From Bacillota bacterium (GTDB lineage: Bacteria; Bacillota; Bacilli; Alicyclobacillales; SLC66), in contig JAJZCB010000033.1 of assembly GCA_021846285.1 (NCBI GenBank), positions 1-36,702 of the forward strand: a stretch of DNA of 36,702 bases, written 5' to 3'. Below the pieces are notes generated by a model. It saw only the letters and a list, made by a program, of their open reading frames with translations, was not told the origin of the DNA and made no database searches. The position numbers and the translations under genes were made by a program. This document shows positions 3,226 to 8,386 of the stretch, piece by piece. Each line of letters begins with the position of its first letter. The stretch's first letter is position 1.

Positions 3226-3277
3226 CATGTGAAGAGCTATTCCGAAAAACTCCGTAACCAGCATCGCCGCATCTCTG

Positions 3278-3940
3278 TCAACGTGCGTTGATCAGATGAA
3301 CGACTTCTTTCCGGAGGATTTGCGCACTGACTTTATGTTTTTCATGCGCAGTCCGATAAGCCACGAGATCCTTCACGAGTACTGGTTCACTGACATGCGC
3401 GGCAGCCGCCATTCTGACAATGGATTCACCGCTGCGCAATTTGGATTTCACTTCCTTGGCGCTCAGGCGGGTCAGCTTCGCCACCTCTTTGAGAAGCCCT
3501 CCAGAGAGCGCCGTAGTGCGATGACGGCTGAGATTCGGATCTGCCATCCATACCGGCAACGATGCGTCCACTCTTTTCTCCAGCGCAGCAGCCTTGGCCG
3601 CCGTGAGATGCTTGCCCTTGATCTCCACGGCCGCCCGATCACGCACCAGCGCTTCCAGTTCACTGAGCAGTCGCGGCCGCGAGATCTTGGCCGCCAGCGC
3701 CAGATCCAGCAACGTCTTGTGATGACGCAGGTCGATGCTCAAAACCTGCGGTTTTACATGCAAAAATGCTGCCATTTGCGGGCTGTGTATGACACTTTGC
3801 ACAATCGCAGGCGCCTGTTTCGGGTGCGCCTTAGGTTTGGCAGTGGCGGCGAATGCGCCGCTCTGCATTACGGGAAGCGCGACGATCGCCGTCAGGGCCA
3901 ATGCCGCACCGATCCGCGCTATGTTCATTGCTCGTTTCAT
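3278..3940 (-). CDS. Secreted alanine/lysine-rich protein with two internal helical repeats (paralogue 1)
   Basis: A 220-residue exported protein of unknown function. I place the start at the ATG at 3940 (MKRAMNIAR), because GGAGGG lies six bases before it; the upstream in-frame ATG overlaps that ribosome site. Residues 1-31 form a signal peptide (basic n-region, hydrophobic core, AFAA cleavage site). Residues about 60-99 and 156-195 are two copies of one helical module of the pattern L-x-V-x(6)-LR-x(3)-(T/S)-(L/I)-(L/V)-x(2)-A-x-(A)-x-(I/V)-S-x(3)-L(L/V), which resembles the small 'GVS' repeats common in exported Firmicute and actinobacterial proteins. A close paralogue lies at 7474-8136, with about nine in ten residues the same; the C-terminal module is almost unchanged and the middle has drifted. 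Convergent with the RND gene. A cell-wall or surface role is possible but unproven. Confidence 0.85.
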   Translation of the reverse strand: MKRAMNIARIGAALALTAIVALPVMQSGAFAATAKPKAHPKQAPAIVQSVIHSPQMAAFLHVKPQVLSIDLRHHKTLLDLALAAKISRPRLLSELEALVRDRAAVEIKGKHLTAAKAAALEKRVDASLPVWMADPNLSRHRTTALSGGLLKEVAKLTRLSAKEVKSKLRSGESIVRMAAAAHVSEPVLVKDLVAYRTAHEKHKVSAQILRKEVVHLINAR

Positions 3941-4077: not shown

Positions 4078-4426
4078 TACCGTTTGCAATTTTCGAATCT
4101 TTACTACTTGAAATCTAGTGAAGAGGTGAAATGACCTACCGTGGCACTCGACCGTCAAAGACATTCGGCAGATAATTTTTCATGCGGGCGAAACCGGTCA
4201 ACCACTTGTATCGTCTAATCAATGTGTGGATCCATAGTTGCATGGTTCAGTGGACATTGACGATCAGAAACTAAACATGGTGCCTGGTTTCTAATTGCGT
4301 GTCCAAACGTGACGAGGTAATGCCGCGGCGTAGAATGAGTGTCAGGAGAACGAATCCGACTCGATTGCTGCGGGTGATAACCTGCTGGCGACGTGTAATC
4401 ACGCTTGAAAGGGGGAGTGAACAACT
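4078..4426. other. Intergenic region between divergent secreted-protein and lipoprotein genes
   Basis: About 350 bases without a convincing ORF. It must hold the promoters of the minus-strand gene at 3940 and the plus-strand gene at 4427. I see no clear -35/-10 pair. A strong ribosome site (AAAGGGGGAG) precedes 4427. The first 40-50 bases still weakly match the sequence after the 71-bp element in the duplicate locus (8341 onward). Confidence 0.5.
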
Positions 4427-7124: not shown

Positions 7125-7193
7125 TCTCTACCCGGAAGATCGCCGCAGGCGTATTTTCTTCCCGGTTGTTGGTGCTGCGAAGCAGCATGAAAG
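7125..7193. repeat. Double-hairpin repeat element, unit 1
   Basis: This unit of about 68 bp begins 20 bases after the iscB relic. It contains hairpin H1 (outer GGAAGA/TCTTCC around CGCC-GCA-GGCG), the conserved link CCCGGTTGTTGG, and hairpin H2 (TGCTGC-GAA-GCAGCA, six perfect pairs). It is followed head-to-tail by unit 2 and the start of a third unit. Confidence 0.8.
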
Positions 7194-7261
7194 TCTATCC
7201 CGAAAAATCGCCGCAGGCGCATTTTCTTCCCGGTTGTTGGTGCCGCGAAGCGCCATGAATG
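7194..7261. repeat. Double-hairpin repeat element, unit 2 (tandem)
   Basis: Same order as unit 1, with CGCC-GCA-GGCG in H1. H2 is TGCCGC-GAA-GCGCCA, which retains five of six pairs and has a C.C mismatch, as if caught between the pairings of units 1 and 3. A further partial unit starts at 7262 (TCTATCCCGGAAATACGG) and then loses similarity. Confidence 0.75.
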
Positions 7262-7437
7262 TCTATCCCGGAAATACGGTGGTCCCTGCCTGTCAGGACG
7301 GATCATGCATGCCGCTGTCGCTAAACTCGCGACGGACACAATATATATCTCCTCCCCGAGCGCGCCTTGTATCTGCGAAAAATCTTGCAGCGCCTTTGTC
7401 ATTCCCTGATGATGCCTCGCAGCGGCAAGGCGGTCTG
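7262..7437. other. Non-coding stretch between repeat units and duplicated locus
   Basis: I see the first ~20 bases of a third repeat unit and then unassigned sequence. No ORF here has a ribosome site or a recognisable product. Confidence 0.4.
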
Positions 7438-7473
7438 TCCCAAAACTCCGCCGCCTGCGTCACTGCCCCTCCA

Positions 7474-8136
7474 TCAACGTTCGTTGATCAGATGAACGAC
7501 TTCTTTCTGGAGGATTTGCGCACTGACTTTATGTTTTTCATTCGCAGTCCGATAAGCCACGAGATCCTTCACGAGCACAGGTTCACTGACATGCGCGGCA
7601 GCCGCCATCCTGACAATGGATTCACCGCTGCGCAATTTGGACTTCACTTCCTTGGCGCTCAGGCGGGTCAGCTTCGCCACCTCTTTAAGAAGCCCTCCTG
7701 AAAGCGCTCCGCCGCGGTGACGGTCAAGATACGGATCGGCCATCCACACAGGCAACGACGCATCCACTTTTTTCTCCAGCGCGGCTGCCTTGGACGCGGT
7801 GAGATGCTTGGAGCGGATTTCCACGGCGGCCCGGTCGCGCACCAGCGCTTCCAGTTCACCGAGCAGGCGCGGACGGGTGATCTTGGCCGCCGCCGCCAGA
7901 TCCAAGAGCGTCTTGTGGTGACGCAGGTCGATGCTTAAGACCTGCGGCTTCACGTGCAAAAATGCTGCCAGTTGCGGACTGTGTACGATACTCTGCACAA
8001 TCGCAGGCGCCTGTTTCGCGTGCGCCTTATGTTTGGCAGTGGCAGCGAATGCGCCGCTCTGCAGTACCGGAAGCGCGACTATCGCCGACAGGGCCAATGC
8101 CGCACCGATCCGCGCTATGTTCATTGCTCGTTTCAT
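7474..8136 (-). CDS. Secreted alanine/lysine-rich protein with two internal helical repeats (paralogue 2)
   Basis: The 220-residue paralogue of the product of 3278-3940. I choose the ATG at 8136 because the homologous start is used there, although the ribosome site is weaker (GGGGGG in place of GGAGGG); an in-frame extension to 8214 has no counterpart in copy 1. The signal peptide, both helical modules and the C-terminal quarter are conserved. Most of the roughly 20 changes lie in residues 36-145, including the loop ADPYLDRHRGGA versus ADPNLSRHRTTA. The stop codon lies inside a perfect palindrome (ATCAACG-AA-CGTTGAT), which may act as a 3' stabiliser. The two copies could be differently expressed, given the altered ribosome site and the element inserted upstream of copy 2. 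Confidence 0.85.
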   Translation of the reverse strand: MKRAMNIARIGAALALSAIVALPVLQSGAFAATAKHKAHAKQAPAIVQSIVHSPQLAAFLHVKPQVLSIDLRHHKTLLDLAAAAKITRPRLLGELEALVRDRAAVEIRSKHLTASKAAALEKKVDASLPVWMADPYLDRHRGGALSGGLLKEVAKLTRLSAKEVKSKLRSGESIVRMAAAAHVSEPVLVKDLVAYRTANEKHKVSAQILQKEVVHLINER

Positions 8137-8161
8137 GCTTCGTCCCCCCAGTTTTGTTTGA

Positions 8162-8174
8162 CCCGCTATGCGGG
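8162..8174 (-). promoter_or_regulatory. Conserved leader hairpin before secreted-protein gene, copy 2
   Basis: CCCGC-ATA-GCGGG on the minus strand, a perfect 5-bp stem in the same position as the copy-1 leader hairpin. Confidence 0.45.
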
Positions 8175-8269
8175 CGAACCGATGTCCGGAGCAGCATGCG
8201 CGTTGGCGCCGCATATCCCGAGAACATTATGAGAGCGACTCAGGACGCAGGATGCAAATGTCGCTCTAC

Positions 8270-8340
8270 TCTCTACCCGGAAAACCGCCGCAGGCGTATT
8301 TTCTTCCCGGTTGTTGGTGGCGCGCAGCGCCATCAAAATC
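8270..8340. mobile_element. Double-hairpin repeat element, solo copy inserted in the duplicated locus
   Basis: The unit has the same plan as those at 7125 and 7194: CGCC-GCA-GGCG in H1, the link CCCGGTTGTTGG, and H2 as TGGCGC-GCA-GCGCCA, again six perfect pairs although several bases differ from unit 1. Compared with copy 1 of the duplication (CTAC then TACCGT at 4074-4083), this segment is a clean insertion between CTAC and TACCGT with no evident target-site duplication. That behaviour is known for REP elements and IS200/IS605-derived palindromic miniature elements. Confidence 0.7.
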
Positions 8341-8386
8341 TACCGTAAACAAGAAGAGTTGAATTTCGCTTGAAACCGTAACGAAA

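Follow-up and report, generated by a model that had tools for sequence, protein, structure and literature searches.

What are the short double hairpins that recur in a stretch of DNA from a bacterium of the order Alicyclobacillales, and what has carried them to their present places? The stretch, referred to here as the window, comprises 36,702 nucleotides (contig JAJZCB010000033.1 of assembly GCA_021846285.1, lineage SLC66), and its genome (G000; 3.89 Mb in 164 contigs) was compared with those of two congeners, G001 and G002. An earlier note, made from the letters of the window alone, had described three units that share a first hairpin (H1), a link and a second hairpin (H2), and had proposed that they are mobile and selected for their structure. 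Our analysis indicates that these units, of about 63 bp, are very probably miniature, non-autonomous derivatives of insertion sequences (IS) of the IS110 family, most likely moved in trans by a DEDD recombinase and its bridge RNA.

The three units are indeed present. A covariance model built from the mini-elements alone (R1) matches the window at 7132-7194, 7200-7262 and 8277-8339 on the plus strand, and a 30-base core occurs three times against 0.00 expected. On the minus strand, which carries the IS-like left end first, unit 1 (7132..7194; model match, alignment, pairs and sequence) has its right-end-like side at 7132, H1 at 7135-7158 and H2, the putative left-end hairpin, at 7173-7187. Unit 2 (7200..7262, minus strand; model match and alignment) lies head-to-tail with unit 1, both sharing the pentamer CTATC at 7195..7199 (GATAG on the other strand, read from the sequence). 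Unit 3 (8277..8339, minus strand; model match and sequence) stands 1.1 kb away as a single copy, with CTACC on both sides (8273-8277 and 8340-8344; site L001, pentamer score 5/5). H2 reads TGCTGC-GAA-GCAGCA in unit 1, TGCCGC-GAA-GCGCCA in unit 2 and TGGCGC-GCA-GCGCCA in unit 3; as first described, the letters differ, all six pairs are kept in units 1 and 3, and unit 2 has one mismatch. Folding beats that of shuffled sequences in unit 1 (DNA z -2.37, RNA z -2.27) and unit 3 (DNA z -3.26, RNA z -2.30), and is no better than shuffles in unit 2 (DNA z -0.42, RNA z -0.04).

These units belong to a large family. R1 finds at least 83 copies in G000 and at least 77 and 93 in G001 and G002, a high copy number that suits the mobile element first supposed; the counts are lower bounds, because only a limited number of candidates was scored (90 in G000). 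BLAST in G000 gives at least 44 matches, at least 42 of them below E 1e-10 (best 40 of 85 candidates scored). Exact copies of the linker CCCGGTTGTTGG number 52 in this genome, and copies of the end motif CATGRNRGTCTATCC with at most one mismatch number 74, against 5 for a reversed control. Across the order, R1 matches at E<=0.01 occur in 15 of 59 genomes, with at least 79 in G058, 36 in G013, 35 in G006, 22 in G043 and 18 in G008; in G042, G043 and G015, the matches that were read proved to be left ends of IS110 rather than mini-elements. A scan of the class (17 candidates scored per genome) gives matches at E<=1e-4 in at least 4 of 299 genomes, all within this order. The mini-elements have spread through a group of acid-loving bacteria. 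Unit 3 has no BLAST match among plasmids and phages, and one exact pattern searched in viral contigs gave none either.

Both hairpins are maintained by compensatory change, as had been argued from the three units. In an alignment of 76 distinct copies, with the tested structure named by the analyst, helix 1 is paired in 95.1% and helix 2 in 96.9% of cells, and two-sided changes occupy 57 cells against a shuffled mean of 17.4 (0 of 500 shuffles as high). Covariation is 0.153 against 0.067 in shuffles (0 of 500 as high), and six pairs carry a two-sided change against 3.7 (7 of 500 as high), with the tool's caveat that related sequences may exceed shuffled values. At one pair of H2, 46 copies have GC and 24 have CG; at the neighbouring pair, 51 have CG and 21 have UA. 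When the partners are slid, pairing falls from 95.8% to 39-58% and the two-sided cells to 2-11, although in one of the slid versions 7 pairs show a change on both sides, compared with 6 in the real structure. Pairs break in some copies, chiefly the outermost H1 pair (24 of 76), and RNAalifold keeps H2 but prefers another fold for the H1 part, one of mostly invariant pairs. Other genera of the order hold related families with the same architecture in different letters, such as GAATAA-CGGC-GCA-GCCG-(A)TTATTC in G013 and AGTAAAT...ATTTAC in G058. The pairing would be kept for recognition of the folded ends, as DNA or as RNA.

The elements are mobile, as had been proposed, because 7 of the 22 sites tested are empty in a sister species. 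These sites were picked partly for visible flank repeats, and the query was the joined flanks of each; the empty alleles concern L186, L147, L195, L024, L019, L047 and L025. At four of them the same pentamer stands on both sides of the element and once in the empty allele (L195 CTATC, L025 CTATA, L019 CTGGC, L047 CTAAC). For L047, the empty allele of G000 carries the pentamer, that of G001 is one base off, and the filled locus is longer by about 12 bases on its right side. The empty allele of L186 differs by one base, that of L024 is 2 nt shorter on the right, and L147 presents three pentamers that are different but similar. The sites L015 and L026 are occupied in several species, part of L201 is deleted in G002, and another variant occupies the same place at L203, at L007 and in L012 versus L278; full orthologs were not seen for the remaining sites of the 22 (L012 is ambiguous in G002). 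The pairs L012 (G000)/L278 (G001), L203/L253 and L007/L254 are each one site with different variants, or two in tandem, in sister species, and such differences reflect conversion, replacement or repeated insertion.

In the window itself, an alignment shows that 1,145 bp of G000 (7141..8285), with a 246-aa frame among them, have no counterpart at the G001 locus, where one hybrid unit stands instead; the units therefore also act as recombination sites. Recombination between units 1 and 3, in either direction, accounts for the difference between the two genomes.

Presence and absence of this kind bear on the idea that the double hairpin is kept for a host function, as a structured RNA or as a regulatory element (a terminator, riboswitch or small RNA). 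Conserved pairing and linkers would suit such a role, and the Rfam results, two tRNAs alone in the window and nothing in 10 loci with relatives, exclude described families only. However, the congeners differ in which sites are occupied, and orientation to flanking genes has no clear bias (24 same and 34 opposite among 58 sites by crude gene calls, 23 of the 58 lying inside frames of that caller), so that a host function is highly improbable.

The flanking pentamers carry further information. From 91 copies, 48 were dropped for compound arrangement or short flanks and 6 as orthologous, and two low-scoring rows remain among the 37 kept, L042, which is orthologous to L015, and L252, which was misread. 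With two offsets allowed equally for data and shuffles, some left ends being one base shorter, the pentamers are identical on both sides at 18 of the 37 single sites (shuffle mean 7.4, maximum 14, 0 of 20,000 as high). CTATC is absent on the left at 25 sites, among which the right pentamer is CTATC in 9 and both sides agree in 6. At the 17 sites with another right pentamer there are 7 exact matches against 0.9 expected (maximum 5 in 20,000 draws). A fixed-offset test is weaker, with 14 exact pairs at 33 sites against a shuffle mean of 6.7 and maximum of 13, and p 0.026 for matched bases. Over 36 sites the sequence just before the left end favours GGATAG, its six positions holding 0.45-1.15 bits; position -9 holds 0.32 bits, and no position beyond the right end exceeds 0.19. 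All arrays read are head-to-tail, and the ends, CCGGAAAAT... and ...ATGRAAGT, compared by eye, are not inverted repeats, unlike those of classical DDE miniature inverted-repeat transposable elements (MITEs).

The earlier note had drawn parallels with palindromic miniature elements derived from IS200/IS605 and with repetitive extragenic palindromic (REP) elements handled by RAYT, in both of which a Y1 transposase would act on single-stranded hairpins. Two hairpins near the ends and the lack of terminal inverted repeats agree with this, and co-resident Y1 genes were indeed detected in G000 as six PF01797 (Y1_Tnp) matches, one an open frame of 220 aa and the others split or partial; the six stretches scanned around them, however, contain stray partial motifs and no units. 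Deviant pentamers match on both sides, which a target-only left flank would not give, and orientation to replication shows no strand bias (GC skew positive at 25 of 58 sites). Although dispersed short palindromes are common to both, REP elements have a GTAG/CGTC tag and mostly inverted dimers, whereas the mini-elements have GATAG/CTATC and head-to-tail dimers, and the ends that IS200/IS605 miniatures (PATE) share with a Y1 element are absent from the six stretches. Because the ends match those of IS110 instead, the parallel does not hold, and we regard a Y1-driven origin as very unlikely.

The pentamers are more congenial to another alternative, an element of bcr1 type that lacks terminal inverted repeats, duplicates 5 bp and depends on an unknown mobiliser, its likeness to IS110 ends being a reverse loan or convergence. 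The bcr1 repeats of the Bacillus cereus group are flanked by TTTAT and, compared by description, are short, structured and dispersed like the mini-elements, with a 5-bp flanking motif. Both the exact flanking repeats and the pentamer present once in the empty sites of L025, L019, L047 and L195 are in accordance with it. Against it, a single IS110 subgroup among those tested shares both ends, the hairpin and the GATAG junction, which renders this alternative unlikely.

That agreement supports the IS110 reading. On the strand opposite to the R1 matches, the unit resembles an IS110 left end joined to a right end, with the layout [GATAG] ACTTTCATG-hairpin-ACCAACAACCGGGAAGAAAAT for the left end, a short linker, and ATTTTC(C/A)G[GATAG] for the right end. 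In this reading H2 is the left-end hairpin, and H1 pairs GAAAAT of the left end with an ATTTTC most likely coming from the right end. R1 matches the left terminus in all 12 loci of one IS110 (9 in G043, 3 in G042; 22.8-29.5 bits), of which four were found with R1 and eight by protein search (the L350 frame is split). The 16 R1 matches include second left ends in L364 and L359 and one weak match of 11.2 bits, and those in G043 and G042 lie in the noncoding region just upstream of the IS110 open reading frame (PF01548+PF02371), whose whole 420-aa query is matched by 23 copies in G043 at 100% (rounded) identity. R1 gives nothing above 10 bits in 10 further loci, which hold other IS110 groups or fragments; among them, L355 is a fragment of the same group, 80% identical, that lacks a left end. 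R1 also matches a broken IS110 of G000 at its left end (L354:1265-1332, 27.4 bits, E 1.9e-5). The other end of the mini-element matches the IS110 right end ATTTTCAGGATAG, a short match, and the IS right end ATTTTCAG is followed by GATAG at every G043/G042 right end found by the pattern ATTTTC[AC]GG. Shuffle tests support the left and right ends separately, most strongly with the G000 relic, to which the left-end alignment scores 18.5 against a shuffle maximum of 12.0 (0 of 5000). For the right end, the CAG variant scores 11.0-13.0, with 0 of 5000 shuffles as good. In a tandem IS110 of G042 (L359) the junction reads right end-GATAG-left end, and the junction between units 1 and 2 in the window is of this same type.

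The relic (G000:C47:4115-5058; L354:1265-2680) contains stops, and its first part is 62% identical to the G043 transposase. Its left end is like that of the mini-elements, a GATTAG target guide is present, and no right end was identified.

Conversely, the double hairpin might be a target that received an IS110, in the way that REPs receive IS621 and QMITE2 receives IS1111; targeting of palindromic repeats by IS110/IS1111 elements is described in the available parts of two articles (PMC11208160, PMC10969869). In the G043 and G042 copies read, however, the hairpin is repeated with the IS, and the copies agree as far as the hairpin end and diverge beyond it, which makes the hairpin the left end of the IS and not its target, and leaves this alternative scarcely credible.

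The full IS110 also agrees with its own targets. Left flanks of the nine G043 copies read are GATTAG in 5 (L364 and L369 share one flank), AATTAG in 2, GAATAG in 1 and TGTTAG in 1; in G042, the tandem copy aside, all three have CAATAG. In the 5' noncoding region stands GATTAGAC (G043) or CAATAGAC (G042), which reproduces the commonest left flank together with the two bases that open the IS end; CAGGATAG, present there in both genomes, is identical to the right end. A bridge RNA is expected to place its left target guide and its left donor guide in this way, according to the accessible text of PMC11208160, and the full IS110 thus carries guide-like sequences for its own target and right end. 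Neither a guide for GGATAG nor a bridge RNA that would direct the mini-elements was found. A truncated IS110 in G015 (L332, G015:C33, ~1031-1390) has the left flank GGGATAG and the guide GAAATAGAC; the tandem junction of L359 aside, this is the left target nearest to GGATAG among those seen beside an IS110 left end.

Several observations weigh against derivation from IS110. The right-end origin of the second H1 arm is not certain, because R1 aligns H1 inside the IS left end. Shuffle support is weaker for the left-end alignment to the G043/G042 IS (1 and 4 of 5000 shuffles as good) and for the CCGG variant of the right end (3 and 2 of 5000). An intact IS110 with matching ends was not found in G000-G002, draft assemblies that may miss one; at E<=1e-5, the G043 transposase and PF01548 find nothing in either G001 or G002, and the IS110s of G000 are the relic in C47 and an intact one in C75, of another group and without such a left end. 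Present-day activity is harder to claim when the genome lacks a cognate IS110, but derivation does not depend on one. Moreover, the mini-elements have covarying 5-bp flanks, whereas the IS110 copies read in G043 keep GATAG on the right and vary on the left; covarying pentamers mean target duplication or a homology rule, and these full copies show neither. The seekRNA paper, in its available sections, treats target duplication as uncharacteristic of IS110/IS1111 and assigns one copy of an apparent duplication to the IS itself (PMC11187229). A five-base heteroduplex or a different IS110 branch could reconcile the conflict. IS492, an IS110-family member, has 5-bp CTTGT repeats at both ends, which by description begin with CT like those of the mini-elements; it is, however, a full IS.

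In relation to IS621-type elements, as presented in the available text of PMC11208160, the mini-elements resemble the IS110 read here in left-end hairpin, right end, head-to-tail junction and target preference beside the left end; they differ from IS110 with bridge RNA in their length of ~63 bp, in having neither a recombinase gene nor a complete bridge RNA, and in their covarying flanks. Because such a length leaves no room for a DEDD recombinase gene, they are termed derivatives rather than full members. The IS1111/IS110 seekRNA elements belong to the DEDD transposase family, and the subterminal inverted repeats of IS1111 resemble the H1 arms, going by the accessible part of PMC11187229.

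Under an IS110 origin, internal deletions would have fused left and right IS110 ends, and the recombinase and bridge RNA would come from a full IS110 that either has since been lost or is absent from the draft assemblies. This cognate element would be expected to have the left end ACTTTCATGGCGC, the right end ATTTTC(C/A)GGATAG and a target guide reading GGATAG. The fused ends would be excised and reinserted at GGATAG-like sites, and a resident copy would be a good target, because the right end itself reads GGATAG, which would explain the head-to-tail arrays. For IS621, a 22-bp donor suffices with the bridge RNA in trans, as stated in the available portion of PMC11208160.

A stronger proposal, which we hold to be possible but doubtful, is that the units are parasites of bridge-RNA recombinases, present in hundreds of copies, with true 5-bp target duplication and hairpins serving as a recognition module in trans; if so, the IS110-type reaction involved would exchange strands over 5 nt, staggered or as a heteroduplex, and no description of such a reaction was found. 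Literature listings on IS110/IS1111 together with MITE, a scope outside which subscription papers and preprints fall, contain no IS110-derived miniature element, nor do the available parts of PMC3718332, PMC10969869 and PMC3189936, and the words "MITE" and "miniature" are absent from the accessible text of the bridge RNA and seekRNA papers (PMC11208160, PMC11187229). Such elements could be common but missed, because they have no gene and no terminal inverted repeats. IS110 recombinases with their bridge RNA are programmable tools for DNA rearrangement, and natural minimal substrates of ~63 bp in many variants would reveal the bases and pairs required by the machinery, and would tell whether elements are naturally mobilised in trans and whether target duplication takes place in this branch.

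Longer relatives of the units, with ~81-213 bp between the end motifs, have common ends and an expanded H1 or H2. One of them accounts for the "partial unit" placed at 7262 in the earlier note: its ends are of the unit type (end motifs with 2 mismatches each), but it is the start of a longer relative at 7268..7434 (minus strand; boundaries by eye) with a different palindromic interior, flanked by CTATC (7263-7267) and CTGTC (7435-7439). Between end motifs in the fetched loci, as distinct from whole genomes, a search for an autonomous element gave chance pairings or small variants only. The hairpin GTGAGATTTTGCTTCGCAAAACTCAG occurs inside expanded H2 variants and also three times in tandem on the minus strand of L304, in the ~90 bases before an element end at 4259 (numbered on that strand).

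Other repeats accompany the family. A second family, alike in build, CCGGAAAATGCGAGATCGCTTGTGCC...ACGATCATGCGGGT, occupies the left flanks of L182 and L196 in G002 and has more than 10 further matches in the three genomes. Within the window, near-identical CAACGTnCGTTGATCAGA palindromes at 3237-3300 and 7440-7500 adjoin CCGAAAAACTCCG / CCCAAAACTCCG and are possibly another type of mini-element. Finally, L058/L179, inferred to be from Alicyclobacillus sp. SP_1, and L019 of G000 share an orthologous stretch with two elements across families of the order, which looks like horizontal transfer.
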